The notes beneath the pieces were generated by a model, which made no database searches, was not told the DNA's origin, and saw only the letters and a program-made list of their open reading frames with translations. Shown piece after piece: positions 5,716-40,181 of a stretch of DNA of 64,000 nt. This stretch comes from an uncultured Acidimicrobiales bacterium (GTDB lineage Bacteria > Actinomycetota > Acidimicrobiia > Acidimicrobiales > SZUA-35), in the NCBI GenBank assembly GCA_937922785.1, contig CALAJQ010000017.1:62001-126000 (forward strand), written 5' to 3'. How positions within the stretch are numbered: position 1 is the stretch's first letter; each line of letters starts with the position of its first letter. The position numbers were made by a program, and so were the translations under genes.

Positions 5716-7356
5716 CTAGACGATTGCCTTTTCTACGTAGGTGCCAAACTCTTTCTCCATCGCCGCAGCGATTTCTTCGAGAGTGGCATAGGCCTTGGTG
5801 GCTTCGAGTATGGCCGGCATCAGGTTGATGGTCGGATCGGCTGCGTCGGCGGTTAGTTGTGTCAGGCTGGCGGCGACCGCGTCAGAGTCCCGCTCTTGCT
5901 TGATGCTCTCCAGCCGCTTCAGTTGATAGTCCTCGACGGCTGCGTCGATTCGAAGCAGCTCGCCTTCGCCTTCGTCACCTTCGGTGAAATCGTTGACTCC
6001 AACCACAATTCGCCGGCCGGCGTTTACTTCGCGTTCGAAGCGGTAGGCAGAGTCAGCAATCTCGCCCACGAAATAGCCATTTTCGATACCGACGTAGCAG
6101 CCCTCCAAGATAGATCCGTTTCCGAGGTCATCGAGGTGGGCGAAGATCTCCTCAGCCTGGCGCTCCATCTCATCGGTCATCCACTCAACATAAGGCGATC
6201 CGCCAAGCGGGTCCGCCACATGAGTTACGCCAGTCTCGTGGGCAACGATCTGCTGGGTCCGCAAAGCGATTCGAGCCGCCTTTTCGGTGGGGAGGGCCAA
6301 CGCTTCATCGTAAGAATCAGTGTGAAGACTTTGGGTTCCGCCCAGTGCTCCGGCCAACGCTTGAATGGCGACCCGGGCGATGTTGATCTCGGGCTGTTGT
6401 GCCGTCAGCGAGACGCCAGCGGTCTGGGTATGAAACCGGCACAACATCGCACGTTCGTCAGTGGCACCGTAACGTTCTTTCATCCACCGGGCCCAGATTC
6501 GGCGGGCTGCCCGGAACTTGCCGATCTCTTCGAAGAAGTCAGAGTGGCTGTTGAAGAAGAACGACAGCCGCTTACCGAACTCATTGACGTCTTGGCCTTC
6601 AGCGAGTGCCGCTTCGACGTAGGCAAAGCCATTGGCCAAAGTAAACGCTAGTTCTTGAGCGGCAGTAGAGCCGGCCTCGCGAATGTGGTAGCCGGAGATC
6701 GAAACCGGGTTGAACATCGGCATCTTTGCGGTTGTGTACTTGACCATGTCGGTGACGATGCGCATCGAAGGCCGCGGCGGGTAGATGTATTCTTTCTGCG
6801 CTTGGTACTCCTTCAGAATGTCGTTCTGAATGGTTCCACGCAGCTGGTTTACCTCAACGCCAGTTTTCTCGGCAACTGCCACATACATGGCCAGCACGGT
6901 TGCGGCTGGCCCGTTGATGGTCATCGAAGTGGAGACGTCACCCAAGTTGATGTCGGCGAACAAGTCCTCCATGTCGGCCAAAGTGTCAACCGCGACGCCG
7001 GCTCGGCCTACTTCGCCAAGGGCCCAGGGACTAGAGGAATCTCGGCCCATGAGTGTGGGCATATCAAACGCCGTCGAGAGCCCGGTGCTGCCAGAGCGCA
7101 ACAGCTCTTTGAAGCGGGCGTTAGTGTCTTCGGCGGTGCCGAAACCAGCAAACATGCGCATGGTCCAAAGTCGAGACCGGTACATGGAAGCGTGTACGCC
7201 TCGAGTGAACGGATACTGGCCTGGGTACGGGGCATCTCCATAGACGGCATCTACTGGAACACCCGACATGGTCTCAAAGGGCACGTCACGCTTTTTGGTG
7301 GCGTCGTAGGCCTCTTTCCAAGCGTCATATTCAGGACCAGAAGGGCTTGTGCTCAT
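5716..7356 (-). CDS. icmA: Acyl-CoA mutase large subunit, isobutyryl-CoA-mutase-like pocket
   Basis: Radical carbon-skeleton mutase of 546 residues that works with the B12 subunit and MeaB encoded downstream. The TIM-barrel domain is complete (GLSTAFDMPTLMGRDS, GTIQNDILKEY, SISGYHIREAG with H224). Two residues set substrate choice in this family. Methylmalonyl-CoA mutases have Tyr89 and Arg207 (Propionibacterium numbering); isobutyryl-CoA mutases have Phe and Gln. Here the aligned positions are F69 (RMFAGFG) and Q187 (EYQAQKEYI), the Icm pair. I infer isobutyryl/butyryl-CoA mutase rather than methylmalonyl-CoA mutase, although such split mutases are often annotated as the latter. Start is ATG 7356; a TTG lies two codons upstream. 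The leader contains the repeat array at 7405-7567. Confidence 0.85.
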   Translation of the reverse strand: MSTSPSGPEYDAWKEAYDATKKRDVPFETMSGVPVDAVYGDAPYPGQYPFTRGVHASMYRSRLWTMRMFAGFGTAEDTNARFKELLRSGSTGLSTAFDMPTLMGRDSSSPWALGEVGRAGVAVDTLADMEDLFADINLGDVSTSMTINGPAATVLAMYVAVAEKTGVEVNQLRGTIQNDILKEYQAQKEYIYPPRPSMRIVTDMVKYTTAKMPMFNPVSISGYHIREAGSTAAQELAFTLANGFAYVEAALAEGQDVNEFGKRLSFFFNSHSDFFEEIGKFRAARRIWARWMKERYGATDERAMLCRFHTQTAGVSLTAQQPEINIARVAIQALAGALGGTQSLHTDSYDEALALPTEKAARIALRTQQIVAHETGVTHVADPLGGSPYVEWMTDEMERQAEEIFAHLDDLGNGSILEGCYVGIENGYFVGEIADSAYRFEREVNAGRRIVVGVNDFTEGDEGEGELLRIDAAVEDYQLKRLESIKQERDSDAVAASLTQLTADAADPTINLMPAILEATKAYATLEEIAAAMEKEFGTYVEKAIV

Positions 7357-7404
7357 GCTCAAAGAATAGCAGCAGTAACAAATTGCTCTGAATTAGGTGC
7401 ATTC

Positions 7405-7490
7405 TGACCTGGCTACCAGCCACCAATTCCGAACTGACCTGGCTACCAGCCACGATTTTCGAACCGACCTGGGAAACAGCCGGGTTTGAC
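7405..7490. repeat. 30-bp tandem repeat A with hairpin cores (leader of icmA)
   Basis: Units begin at 7405, 7435 and 7465, a period of exactly 30 bp. The first two carry the hairpin core CTGGCTACCAGCCA (stem TGGCT/AGCCA). The third is degenerate (CTGGGAAACAGCCGGG). The array lies just before repeat array B, in the spacer between icmA and tesB, both read from the minus strand, so it would be in the icmA leader or the tesB 3' region. Confidence 0.8.
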
Positions 7491-7567
7491 TGGCTACACC
7501 GCCAGAACGGGGGAGCGTGACTGGCTACACCGCCAGAACAGGGGAGCGTGACTGGCTACATCGCCAG
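7488..7567. repeat. 31-bp tandem repeat B with hairpin cores
   Basis: Three units start at 7488, 7519 and 7550, a period of 31 bp. Each carries CTGGCTACACCGCCAG or a one-base variant, able to fold as a 5-bp stem (CTGGC/GCCAG) with a 6-nt loop. The first two units also share GAAC(G/A)GGGGAGCGT. No U tract follows, so these are not ordinary terminators. Confidence 0.8.
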
Positions 7568-7595
7568 TTGGGCGGATCAGATTGGGCGGATCAGG
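7568..7595. repeat. 14-bp direct repeat across the tesB stop
   Basis: TTGGGCGGATCAGA and TTGGGCGGATCAGG are adjacent 14-bp copies at 7568-7581 and 7582-7595. The second copy encodes the last tesB codons (LIRP) and the first contains the stop, so the gene end has been locally duplicated. Confidence 0.75.
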
Positions 7596-8425
7596 CCTTC
7601 TTGGACGACAGTGGCTACTAACCGACCGTCGTGGGTGAAGACTTTGGCCGTCGCTAGCCCTCGAGCGTTGCCGGCGAAGGGCGTGTGCTGGTCATAAAGC
7701 ATCCACTCGTCAGCGCGGAATGGGCCGTGGAACCACATTGCGTGATCGAGGCTTGCCATCATCACGTTTGTGTCGCCATAAGAATGGCCGTGCGGCAGCA
7801 TCGTCGTGTCCAACAAAGTCATGTCTGATGCATAGGTCAGCAAGCAAGTGTGCAAGACCGGGTCGTCGGGCAGCGTCCCGTCGGTCTTGAACCAAACTAA
7901 TTGGTTCGGAGGCTGAGGCTCGTGGCGATCGAAAGGGTGTTGAGAGGCCCAGCGAGTGTCGATCGGTCGGTCTTCGTCAGGGTCCCAGCCGGCAGGAACA
8001 GTTTCCATGGCCTTCAGAATCTCACTGCGGGTCTTGAGGGTTTCCGGAGCTGGAGCATCTGGCATCGGGTCGCTGTGTTCAAACCCAGGTTCCTCTTTGT
8101 GGAACAAAACAGCCATGTTGAAGATCGCCCGGCCGTGTTGAATCGCTACCACACGTCGGGTTCCAAACGAGCGGCCGTCACGAATTCGGTCCACCTCGTA
8201 AAGAACTGGAATCTCGGGGTCGCCGGGACGGAGAAAGTAGGAGTGGAGGGAATGTACTCGCAACTCAGGTTCGACCGTCCGCACTGCTGCTACTAGCGAT
8301 TGTCCTGCCACTTGGCCGCCGAACAGGCGTTGACGATCTTCGTCGGGGTTGAACCCCCGGAAGATGTTTACCTCAATTGGTTCGAGGTCAAGAAGATTTA
8401 CGAGGGCGTCAACGGCGTCTTGCAC
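7577..8425 (-). CDS. tesB: Acyl-CoA thioesterase II (TesB family)
   Basis: Hydrolyses acyl-CoA to free fatty acid and CoA in the cytoplasm. The protein has 282 residues and two hotdog domains. N-terminal landmarks are the RLFGGQVAGQSL segment and LHSYFLRPGDP; the C-terminal hotdog has SLDHAMWFH with the conserved Asp, the YDQHTPFAGNARG loop and the terminal Gln in VVQEGLIRP. Length and motifs match E. coli TesB (286 residues). It is upstream of the icmA operon on the same strand but separated by the repeat arrays, so it is probably transcribed on its own. Confidence 0.93.
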   Translation of the reverse strand: MQDAVDALVNLLDLEPIEVNIFRGFNPDEDRQRLFGGQVAGQSLVAAVRTVEPELRVHSLHSYFLRPGDPEIPVLYEVDRIRDGRSFGTRRVVAIQHGRAIFNMAVLFHKEEPGFEHSDPMPDAPAPETLKTRSEILKAMETVPAGWDPDEDRPIDTRWASQHPFDRHEPQPPNQLVWFKTDGTLPDDPVLHTCLLTYASDMTLLDTTMLPHGHSYGDTNVMMASLDHAMWFHGPFRADEWMLYDQHTPFAGNARGLATAKVFTHDGRLVATVVQEGLIRPI

Positions 8426-8762: not shown

Positions 8763-10085
8763 GTGAGCTTGATTGACACGTCAAACGCAGCCGCTCTCTC
8801 AGCCCTGTATTTGCGGGTCCGCAATTACACCGAAGAGTTGTCTGAACCTCTTTCGCCGGAAGATCAGACCGTCCAGTCGATGCCCGACACCAGTCCAACA
8901 AAGTGGCATCGAGCCCACACAACCTGGTTCTTTGAGACCTTCATACTCGAACCGTATGAGTCCAACTTTGCTCGTTATGACGAGATCTACAACTTCTTGT
9001 TCAACAGCTACTACGTCCAGGTCGGCGACCGTTTCTCGCGCCCTGACCGTGGACTGATTTCCCGTCCTGGGGCGGCTGAAATTGCCCAGTACAGGGCAAA
9101 CGTCGACGGGCGGATCGTTGCGCTTATCGAATCGGCTGACGACGCGACACGGGCCGAAATCGCAACACTTCTAGTTCTCGGCTGCCATCACGAGCAGCAA
9201 CACCAGGAGCTGCTCTTGATGGACATCAAACACGTTTTGTCCATCAACCCGACCGAGCCCGCCTATTCCGCCAATTCCGCCAATTCCGCCTATTCCGACT
9301 CAGCTGCCGACGGATCAGCTCCAACCCAGCCCAGTGCGCCACCGGATCTTGGCTGGGTCGAGTTCGAAGGTGGGGTCTTCCCCATTGGCAAGAACCACTC
9401 GGACTCGGGTTTCACCTTCGACAATGAGGGTCCTGAACACGACGCTCTTATCGGGCCCTTCAAACTGGCTGACCGGCTAATTACTTGCGGCGAATGGCTC
9501 AACTTTATGGCCGACGACGGGTACCACCGAGCCGAACTGTGGCTGTCTGAAGGTTGGGCCTATCGCAACGAGCACAACTGGGAAGCGCCTCTTTACTGGC
9601 ATGGGTCTGATCATGGTTGGGTAATGCACACCCTGACAGGAACGCGTCCAGTGGATCCGAACGAACCGGTGTGTCATGTCTCTTTCTATGAAGCTGATGC
9701 CTTTGCATCTTGGGCAGATGCTCGCTTGCCTACCGAATTCGAATGGGAGCGGGCAGCCCAGCTTCACATCGATGCGGGGGCAACCGCAGAACTAACCCCA
9801 CGTCTTCATCCAGTTGTCGCTAGCGATTCCGAACTCGGCCTGCTTGGTCAGATGTTCGGTGAGTGCTGGGAGTGGACTGGTTCTCAGTATCGGCCTTACC
9901 CGGGCTTTAAGGCCCCCGATGGGGCAATTGGGGAGTACAACGGCAAGTTCATGATTAACCAAATGGTTCTTCGGGGCGGATGCGCGTATACCTCCGAGGG
10001 TCACATTCGTCCGACATACAGGAACTTCTTTCCGGCTCACACCCGCTGGCATTTGTCAGGGGTCAGGCTGGCAAAGGACTCCTGA
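8763..10085 (+). CDS. egtB: Ergothioneine biosynthesis iron enzyme EgtB
   Basis: Non-haem iron enzyme that makes the C-S bond of ergothioneine by oxidative coupling of hercynine with gamma-glutamylcysteine or cysteine. It has 440 residues. The N-terminal DinB-like helical domain carries the iron-binding histidines: WHRAHTTWFF (H49, H52) and GCHHEQQHQE (H143, H147). The C-terminal FGE-sulfatase domain has GWVEFEGGVFPIG, PTEFEWERAA, GECWEWTGSQYRPYPGF and RGGCAYTSEGHIRPTYRNFF. Between the domains is a low-complexity Ala/Ser/Asn/Tyr linker encoded by four 9-bp repeats. The start is GTG. EgtD (histidine methyltransferase), usually a neighbour, is not in the window. Confidence 0.95.
   Translation: MSLIDTSNAAALSALYLRVRNYTEELSEPLSPEDQTVQSMPDTSPTKWHRAHTTWFFETFILEPYESNFARYDEIYNFLFNSYYVQVGDRFSRPDRGLISRPGAAEIAQYRANVDGRIVALIESADDATRAEIATLLVLGCHHEQQHQELLLMDIKHVLSINPTEPAYSANSANSAYSDSAADGSAPTQPSAPPDLGWVEFEGGVFPIGKNHSDSGFTFDNEGPEHDALIGPFKLADRLITCGEWLNFMADDGYHRAELWLSEGWAYRNEHNWEAPLYWHGSDHGWVMHTLTGTRPVDPNEPVCHVSFYEADAFASWADARLPTEFEWERAAQLHIDAGATAELTPRLHPVVASDSELGLLGQMFGECWEWTGSQYRPYPGFKAPDGAIGEYNGKFMINQMVLRGGCAYTSEGHIRPTYRNFFPAHTRWHLSGVRLAKDS
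9261..9296 (+). repeat. 9-bp coding minisatellite inside egtB
   Basis: Four exact-period copies of GCC(T/A)ATTCC encode the interdomain linker (Ala-Tyr/Asn-Ser units). Slippage would keep the reading frame because the period is 9 bp. Confidence 0.85.
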
Positions 10086-24614: not shown

Positions 24615-25418
24615 TCAGATGTCTGTGAAGTCTCCGCCACGACCAGCTCCAGAGGCGAAGCGGCGCGCACCGGCGATTCCCTCAGCTGCTACGACGCCCT
24701 TACTTGTCTCGAATTCGTTGCGCAAAGCGTCATTGACACTCATCCCATGGGATTCAATCGCACTCTGGCGATCAGCTCGCAAGCATTGTTGAGGGAATCT
24801 AGCAATCTCGCGGGCTAGGGATTCAGCCTTGTCTCGGGCTTCACCTTCGGCAACGACATATTCACACAGGCCGATGCGCTCACACTCGGTAGCCAGCACT
24901 TGGCGCCCGGTCAGAATGAGGTCTAGCGCCCGGCCTTGGCCTACAAGTCTGGGTAGACGGACTGTGCCTCCGTCAATTAGCGGGACGCCCCACCGACGGC
25001 AATAGACGCCCATGTAGGCAGATTCTTCCATGACCCTAATGTCGGCCCACATGGCTAGTTCCATACCGCCAGCGACCGCTGGCCCAGCAATGGCTGCTAT
25101 GACCGGCTTAGATAGTTCTAGCCTACTTGGGCCCATAGGCGCCCGGGAATGAGAATCGTGAGTCTTGGCATCGAAGCTAAGCCGGTCGATGCTGCTGTCA
25201 CCGTCGTTAAGTGAAGCGGCTTGCTTCAGGTCGAAGCCGGCACAGAACGCGCCACCCTCGCCCCAAAGCACAGCCACCGACGCAGAGTCGTCTCGCTCGA
25301 ACTCAACAAAGGCCTCGAAGAGTTCTCGAGCGCTTGTTGGATCCATTGCATTGCGCACCTCGGGCCGCGAATGGATAACAGTCCAAACCGGCCCGGAACG
25401 CTCAACTCTTACAGTCAC
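24615..25418 (-). CDS. Crotonase-family enoyl-CoA hydratase-like protein
   Basis: Crotonase-fold protein of 267 residues acting on an acyl-CoA thioester. Oxyanion-hole segments are GGAFCAGFDLKQ and AIAGPAVAGGMELAMWADIRV. The first catalytic Glu of enoyl-CoA hydratases (GGMEL) is present; the second position falls in WGVPLIDGGTVRLPRL and is Asp rather than Glu, so hydratase activity is likely but not certain. The GTG start sits in a 16-bp tandem repeat. It lies downstream of an aldehyde dehydrogenase gene on the same strand with a 56-bp gap, a probable operon. Confidence 0.85.
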   Translation of the reverse strand: MTVRVERSGPVWTVIHSRPEVRNAMDPTSARELFEAFVEFERDDSASVAVLWGEGGAFCAGFDLKQAASLNDGDSSIDRLSFDAKTHDSHSRAPMGPSRLELSKPVIAAIAGPAVAGGMELAMWADIRVMEESAYMGVYCRRWGVPLIDGGTVRLPRLVGQGRALDLILTGRQVLATECERIGLCEYVVAEGEARDKAESLAREIARFPQQCLRADRQSAIESHGMSVNDALRNEFETSKGVVAAEGIAGARRFASGAGRGGDFTDI

Positions 25419-25446
25419 AATCTCTTACAGGCACAATCTCTTACAG
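25415..25446 (-). repeat. 16-bp tandem repeat at the crotonase start
   Basis: Two exact-period copies of xCACAATCTCTTACAG (25415-25430, 25431-25446), with a partial third at 25405-25414. On the coding strand each copy reads CTGTAAGAGATTGTG, so the Shine-Dalgarno-like AAGAG and GTG start have been duplicated; 16 bp is not a multiple of 3, so only the last GTG is in frame. Confidence 0.75.
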
Positions 25447-25474
25447 CCACAAAGGAGTCAGGGTCAGGGCTGAC

Positions 25475-37912: not shown

Positions 37913-37926
37913 CGGCTGTCCTGTCT

Positions 37927-37967
37927 AACTGCTGTGTTGATTTGACTGCTGTGTTGATTTAACTGCT
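37927..37967. repeat. 17-bp tandem repeat upstream of the YbaK gene
   Basis: Copies of (A/G)ACTGCTGTGTTGATTT at 37927-37943 and 37944-37960, then AACTGCT, a partial third copy that runs into the TAG stop of the epimerase gene (37966-37968). The array forms most of the 53-bp spacer. Confidence 0.75.
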
Positions 37968-39534: not shown

Positions 39535-39554
39535 TTATCCACAGTCTCGGGGAC

Positions 39555-40181
39555 CTAACTACTTTTGAGACTTGACCCCATTAGGTAAGCAACGATTTCG
39601 GCTACGCAGTCATCCAGTGGTTTGGAAGTGTCCACTGTGATCTCTGGGCTGGGCGGCGGCTCGTAGGGAGCGCTGATTCCGCTGAACTCACCAATCTCAC
39701 CAGCTCGGGCCTTCTTGTACAGACCCTTCACATCTCGGGCTTCGCAGACCTCTAGTGGAGTGTCGACAAAGACTTCTACGAAGCTGCCCTCAGGATGTAG
39801 CGACCGGACCTTGGCCCGGTCAGCTACATAAGGGGAGATGAAAGCAGTCAAAACCACCATGCCCGAATCCTGAAACAGTCGGCAAACTTCACCGATTCGT
39901 CGGATGTTTTCTGTACGGTCCTCTGGCGAGAAACCGAGATCAGAGTTCAAACCAAAGCGAACGTTGTCTCCATCAAGAACGTAGGCGGCTACGCCTTTGG
40001 CAATCAGAGCCTTCTCGACTGCAAACGCCAACGTCGACTTGCCAGAACCAGAAAGTCCGGTGAACCAGACCGTCTTCGACTCGTGGCCGAAGTTCTCAGC
40101 TCGATCCGCGCCCGAGATGTGTCCTTCGGCCCGAACGATGTTCTTTGAAACTGGCTCGCCAGAGACTGGTTGGTTAGACAA
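39555..40181 (-). CDS. cysC: Adenylylsulfate kinase (stand-alone)
   Basis: Phosphorylates APS to PAPS. It has 208 residues from a TTG at 40181, 5 bp after the cysN-cysC stop; an earlier frame start at 40241 would overlap that gene by 55 bp. The P-loop is [28 protein letters not shown], the lid [15 protein letters not shown], and the [22 protein letters not shown] loop are all canonical. It is a second APS kinase directly behind a CysN-CysC fusion that already has one, and its motifs are closer to the standard enzyme than those of the fused domain. Confidence 0.88.

Follow-up and report, generated by a model that had tools for sequence, protein, structure and literature searches.

A methylmalonyl-CoA mutase-type gene and a tesB-like gene are separated by short tandem arrays of palindromic units, and the question raised by this locus is whether the arrays serve the mutase gene, arose by a local duplication or belong to a larger family of sequences. 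The window analysed here is the whole stretch of 64,000 nucleotides that contains them (G000:C17:62001-126000), part of a genome of 4,913,539 bases in 45 contigs. We consider it probable (roughly 0.7) that the arrays together form a single copy of a mobile palindromic repeat, non-coding and non-autonomous, which works like a REPIN or BIME and is lineage-restricted in the sense of not being seen outside this genome, the sole member of its genus among those compared.

Anatomy of the element in the window

The element spans positions 7404-7567 of the window (164 bp, plus-strand orientation) in the layout A-A-A2-B-B-B and is bordered by A/T pairs at 7402-7403 and 7568-7569. TRF reported a 30-bp array (7404-7472), a 31-bp array (7487-7567) and a 13-bp direct repeat (7568-7594) with scores, in that order, of 110, 148 and 54, so that the arrays of the initial annotation were located again to within a base. 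Two forward A-unit cores (CTGACCTGGCTACCAGCCA) lie at 7404-7422 and, 30 bp further on, at 7434-7452. The next 30-bp unit, at 7464-7487 on the plus strand (CCGACCTGGGAAACAGCCGGGTTT), had been taken as a third member of the same family. It is devoid of an intact CTGG/CCAG hairpin and is a distinct, diverged junction module (A2), unequal to the two A units before it, which forms the conserved centre of the element. It is followed by three B-unit cores, inverted relatives of A that are assigned to the minus strand and read GACTGGCTACACCGCCAG on the plus strand, at 7488-7505, 7519-7536 (31 bp after the first) and 7550-7567 (with one substitution).

Both flanking genes are encoded on the minus strand. 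The start of the mutase large-subunit gene (5716-7362; PF01642; named icmA in the initial annotation) is 41 bp from the A end of the element, and the stop of the tesB-like gene (7577-8425; the name is likewise that of the initial annotation) is 9 bp from the B end. The direct repeat TTGGGCGGATCAG at 7568-7594, originally given as 14 bp, is indeed present at the tesB stop; it measures 13 bp, however, and adjoins the element without being part of it. It duplicates the tesB 3' end, copying the last codons, so that the present tesB stop codon lies within the duplicated stretch. Further tandem repeats in the window are a 9-bp repeat at 9259-9297 (CCGCCAATT, 4.3 copies), which encodes a short Ser/Ala/Asn repeat in the open reading frame 8763-10085, and two short arrays at 25406-25452 (16 bp x 2.9) and 37926-37967 (17 bp x 2.5).

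Recurrence in the genome

A search for the cores in the rest of the genome had been suggested at the outset. With up to three mismatches the A core matched 84 times and the B core 72 times, as opposed to four matches for each reversed-pattern control, and recurrence is therefore far above chance. The matches cluster, with A units preceding B units. A sequence model of the A2-B centre detected 45 copies of nearly full length (46.6-70.5 bits) and, as isolated sites, four that are partial or degenerate (C18:42644, C29:93786, C13:45788 and C15:3058). Of the degenerate sites, two (L112 and L201) consist of a plain inverted doublet; in the latter (L201 2775-2822; G000:C13:45788) the arms make up an almost perfect palindrome around TGTTTT. 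From the surrounding sequence 44 copies comprising 168 units were parsed, the copy at C20:174730 being counted among the 45 and absent from the 44 because it failed the parsing rule; a spurious A unit (L117) and a weak B unit (L091) were removed before A/T pairs and base pairs were counted. Individual copies are about 45-165 bp long. Their distribution over all 45 contigs is indistinguishable from an even spread (p 0.08 for the bases in large empty contigs; p 0.24 in a chi-square test).

A one-off local tandem duplication would be in keeping with the adjacent 13-bp repeat, which is local. Given some 45 copies of the element elsewhere, this origin has virtually no probability left and was discarded, even though close relatives do without the family. 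Among 39 genomes of the bacterium's taxonomic family, including its own, the other 38 had at most six matches each at two mismatches, similar to the reversed control, and no arrays. An order-wide sample of 347 genomes yielded its own genome plus one partial match of 26 bits in G321, and a phylum-wide sample of 396 genomes, overlapping the former, its own genome alone. In the contigs of 84,980 species a 27-mer of the element had no match and a 22-mer had one, in Actinoplanes italicus, which by our arithmetic is about chance level. Viral contigs contained no match to the element.

A single unit in two orientations

The layout is uniform. All 44 parsed copies consist of one to three A units followed by one to three B units, and 13 of them then carry an inverted A (TGACTGTTTCCCAGGTCAG), one of these with a weak B match further on. 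In its basic form the element is a doublet around GGGTTT, with A2 forward and B inverted. The A unit has the consensus GWW-CYGACCTGG-SWA-CMAGYCA plus an 11-nt linker, which is replaced by CCGGGTTT in the last A unit; the consensus of the B unit is TTTGACTGGSTACACCGCCAG-WWC plus a linker. In an alignment that we made from the unit counts, the reverse complement of B (GWWCTGGCGGTGTAGCCAGTCA) matches A without gaps and shares with it the outer GWWCTG, the inner CCAGYCA and the Y positions. The two supposed families are thus the same unit in opposite orientations, and each copy consists of forward units that meet inverted units at one centre. What had been described as separate 30-bp and 31-bp repeats is a single modular element, a head-to-head array around a conserved centre.

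Spacing within the array is almost invariant. A cores follow each other at 30 bp in 43 of 45 cases, and the distance from A2 to B is 24 bp in 39 of the 44 copies; in the other five A2 is too diverged for the core search (in one it is shifted by a base), so that the A-B distance reads 54-55. B cores are 31 bp (13 of 23) or 30 bp (10 of 23) apart, and the inverted A follows B at 29 bp (10 of 13) or 30 bp (3 of 13). Even stricter is the composition of the unit edges: the two outermost bases are A or T in all 168 units (AA 86, TT 67, TA 13, AT 2). The spacer between CTGG and CCAG differs in length between A (3) and B (8).

Linkers vary, yet they fall into recurring classes such as CCAATTCCGAA in ten units and AAAAATCCGAA in six. 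This recurrence between loci, together with the presence of copies at about 45 loci, led us to dismiss a CRISPR array. A linkers are more alike within one copy (80%, 12 pairs) than between copies (65%, 1164 pairs), a pattern that local duplication of units would produce; no such excess is seen in the ten bases that follow B cores (52%, 26 pairs, versus 49%, 2252 pairs).

Placement relative to genes

Genes were predicted by our own codon statistics (coding density 0.88), and the following counts refer to these calls rather than to an annotation. All parsed copies are intergenic by these calls, except that six overlap a predicted gene at the edge by 4-50 bp. The flanking genes are convergent in 19 cases, codirectional in 17 and divergent in seven, one copy being located close to the end of a contig. 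The control gaps (30 bp or more, n=73), taken from loci not centred on elements and from the rest of the window, comprise 10 convergent, 49 codirectional and 14 divergent ones. Convergent gaps are thus enriched among the elements (19 of 43 versus 10 of 73; Fisher odds ratio 5.0, p 3.7e-4), while divergent placement does not differ from the control (p 0.81). Gene pairs around the elements were rejected as a control because a convergent pair cannot be directly followed by another, which makes them biased. Gene 3' ends account for 55 of the 87 flanks, at a median distance of 14 bp, and gene starts for 32, at a median distance of 55 bp. The neighbours have no function in common: 86 flanking proteins match 134 Pfam families, none of which occurs in more than three proteins.

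A proposed constraint on DNA rather than on a transcript

Placement close behind stop codons could indicate a transcription terminator or a 3' RNA stabiliser, with tandem hairpins that are read from both sides. Compared with dinucleotide shuffles, the copies fold better, and equally so on either strand (mean z -3.1 and -3.2); an inverted layout has this effect on both strands, and there is no strand preference. The copy in the window, for which folding of the minus strand had been proposed as a check, folds more weakly (z -1.5 on the minus and -2.5 on the plus strand). The predicted base pairs, however, are not maintained by compensatory changes. A consensus of 44 centres computed with RNAalifold has a covariation term of +0.15, i.e. 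none, and only one of ten predicted pairs has a single change on both sides. In the CTGG/CCAG hairpin of 101 A units, disruption affects two of the four pairs (in 20 and 28 units), and in no unit had both sides changed with the pair kept; among 67 B units there is one such case. Behind 3' ends that carry an element, terminator-like sites (8 of 55) are about as frequent as in shuffled sequences (6.4). Intrinsic terminators, defined as a GC stem followed by a T run, were not found in the arrays, and the two matches between 7300 and 8900 lie outside them, in line with the initial remark that U tracts are missing. Since base pairs are uncompensated and terminators do not exceed the shuffled level, we infer that the constraint acts on DNA, through recognition by an enzyme or protein, and not on the transcript. 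A terminator or stabiliser as the main role of the element is accordingly improbable.

Even less can be said for a cis-acting leader RNA or operator of the mutase gene, a role that had been considered because the copy in the window ends 41 bp before the mutase start. It is the only one of 44 copies in front of a mutase gene, and the family as a whole sits beside 86 genes that share no theme. A search with the Rfam 15 covariance models gave no match up to E = 1, covariation is next to absent, and tesB is nearby in none of 29 mutase loci examined in relatives. An icmA-specific role is largely refuted by these data and has hardly any probability.

Evidence for copying

Two lines of evidence argue that the element has been copied around: near-identical copies in unrelated surroundings and an element-free counterpart site in a relative. 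Among 171 pairs of similar length the best agree over 102-103 bp to 97% (L100 and L107) and 96% (a pair in L093, separated by 1.1 kb), whereas identity between their 60-nt flanks is 20-28%, which is the random level. At locus L108 an element of 133 bp separates trpA from a lipoprotein-like gene in a gap of 196 nt (55 + 133 + 8). The relative G003 (L215) has these two genes side by side, separated by 71 nt that contain no element. Of 29 trpA loci examined in relatives five had the downstream gene: one adjacent (G003), three with another gene in between (G007, G016 and G018) and one in inverted order. At the window locus the corresponding comparison failed, as none of the relatives' 29 mutase loci has tesB beside the mutase. 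With about 45 copies and up to 97% identity in unrelated flanks, the mobile palindromic element listed among the initial suggestions is the one that is supported.

Three points count against mobility: no mobilising gene is linked to the element, no target-site duplication was seen by eye in copies ending in inverted A, and an empty site was found in one relative only. A MITE would have terminal inverted repeats in common with an IS as well as a target-site duplication; in the element, CTGACC/GGTCAG forms the ends of those 13 copies that close with an inverted A. In three copies (L093, L104 and L110) the gene predicted next door overlaps the element by 4 bp and has the TGA of CTGACC as its stop codon; the Pfam domains of the encoded proteins reach profile positions 264/271, 208/208 and 88/89, and the genes are therefore not visibly truncated.

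A second repeat family with its own transposase

Two genes for Y1 transposases are present in the genome (95.7% complete), and neither is flanked by the element. Given this completeness, a RAYT may be missing from the assembly. At 82.6 bits RAYT1 (C12:209252) exceeds the NCBIfam cutoff of 80 bits for REP-associated tyrosine transposases, whereas RAYT2, with 39.8 bits, falls below it. Scored with the unit matrices, the flanks of RAYT1 were at random level. The best A score at RAYT2 was -5.1, slightly above the random 95th percentile (-7.3) and well below the random maximum (5.7), and was taken as chance.

RAYT1 is flanked by a 59-nt inverted repeat of its own, the core of which is dispersed (46 genome matches versus one in the reversed control). 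RAYT1 (G000:C12:209252-209581; L160) and the TCAAGTCTCRAAAGTAGCTAGG repeat constitute a RAYT with its own REP family, separate from the element studied here; a copy of this REP is found in the window at 39554-39575 on the minus strand. On both sides of the second Y1 gene (L161 991-1869; G000:C12:164226) lies GGGGACAGGCCTGGCTCACCT, a perfect inverted repeat of 21 nt. At L188 (3058-3109; G000:C15) a minimal element doublet lies about 50 bp from a RAYT1-type REP, a constellation which we regard as a lead only; at a distance of about 0.9 kb there is another REP of this type in opposite orientation.

Possible mechanism and function

Based on these findings we propose that a putative enzyme acting in trans recognises the doublet as DNA, probably as a single strand folded into a hairpin or double hairpin, and copies it to new sites. 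The basic doublet is extended at a phase of 30-31 bp by additional A units on its one side and additional B units on its other, and the number of units may grow or shrink by slippage or recombination between them. At gene 3' ends copies would do little harm and would therefore persist. A secondary role as 3' boundary or protein-binding array is possible.

The strict phase of 30 bp and the A/T rule would also fit an array bound by a host protein, and multi-site protein binding had been among the original suggestions. According to such a model the units are phased sites for a putative DNA-binding protein (nucleoid, topology or transcription-boundary) that isolates chiefly convergent transcription units, the array having spread by copying and then been kept by selection. 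Spacing is near-invariant despite variable linkers (A-A 30 bp in 43 of 45; B-B 30 or 31 bp in 23 of 23), fixed spacing and the A/T pairs at 168 of 168 edges point to recognition of DNA, and tolerance of just two letters at these edges may reflect reading of the minor groove. Enrichment between convergent genes and the even distribution over contigs are likewise compatible with a host function. However, even spread and placement at 3' ends are equally expected of tolerated mobile repeats, close relatives live without the element, and the control set from the same genome includes 20 convergent pairs that lack it. Moreover, with different CTGG-CCAG spacers in A and B there is no single dyad operator. 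We therefore judge a primarily host-used array to be unlikely. It is tempting to speculate, as a rather doubtful variant, that a phased head-to-head recognition array was first mobile and later kept as a transcription-unit boundary; without a RAYT being involved, a putative protein would depend on A/T pairs at all unit edges as well as on a register of 30-31 bp, or about three helical turns.

The mobile-repeat interpretation, which we prefer, adds a lineage-restricted modular palindromic repeat family in an uncharacterised branch. It also makes the genome an internal contrast, with one repeat family that has a visible mobiliser and one that does not. Should a non-RAYT enzyme or a host protein read the element, the A/T edge rule and the fixed register would be direct handles for finding that protein.

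Relation to known repeat systems

No description of the element was found in the literature searched. Like REPINs (PMC3116915), it is intergenic and dispersed, has an inverted doublet as basic unit with conserved ends and a less conserved spacer, and can fold as a single strand; two inverted units around a spacer, forward A and inverted B, are present in 44 of 44 copies and in the 45 centre matches. It differs from them in that its arms are two diverged unit types extended by tandem units, no RAYT is linked, and standard copies show no compensatory changes: hairpin-preserving changes amount to 0 of 101 A units, 1 of 67 B units and 1 of 10 predicted pairs.

REPs and BIMEs of the GTAG and CGTC super-families are, according to PMC3733652, grouped palindromic units of 20-40 bp that sit between convergent and unidirectional genes, behind coding regions, with several REP types per genome. 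The element resembles them as a short palindromic unit in many dispersed intergenic copies (168 units in 44 copies) and in this placement. The same paper gives a terminal GTAG tag for more than 90% of the members of most families. The only GTAG-like stretch of the element is internal and, judged by the limiting positions, can be present in no more than 59 of 102 A units and 46 of 68 B units; the unit edges carry the strict A/T pair. A RAYT gene flanked by the same repeat is not found at either of the two Y1 genes of this genome. Because both the GTAG tag and the RAYT link are lacking, we do not file the element as a GTAG REP. The RAYT1-linked REP family TCAAGTCTCRAAAGTAGCTAGG is likewise a dispersed short repeat of the same genome, with 46 matches; it has a different sequence and flanks its own RAYT as an inverted repeat.

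The pneumococcal BOX element, as described in PMC3049150, is similar in its layout: it is modular, A-(B)n-C, with a variable number of units, over-represented between convergent genes and confined to few species. In contrast to BOX, the modules on the two sides of our element are related, inverted and held in a 30-bp register, and no target duplication is apparent by eye. New here is a modular, head-to-head, phased repeat family that obeys an A/T edge rule and has no visible mobiliser, and the general REPIN/BIME kind to which it is compared is already known.
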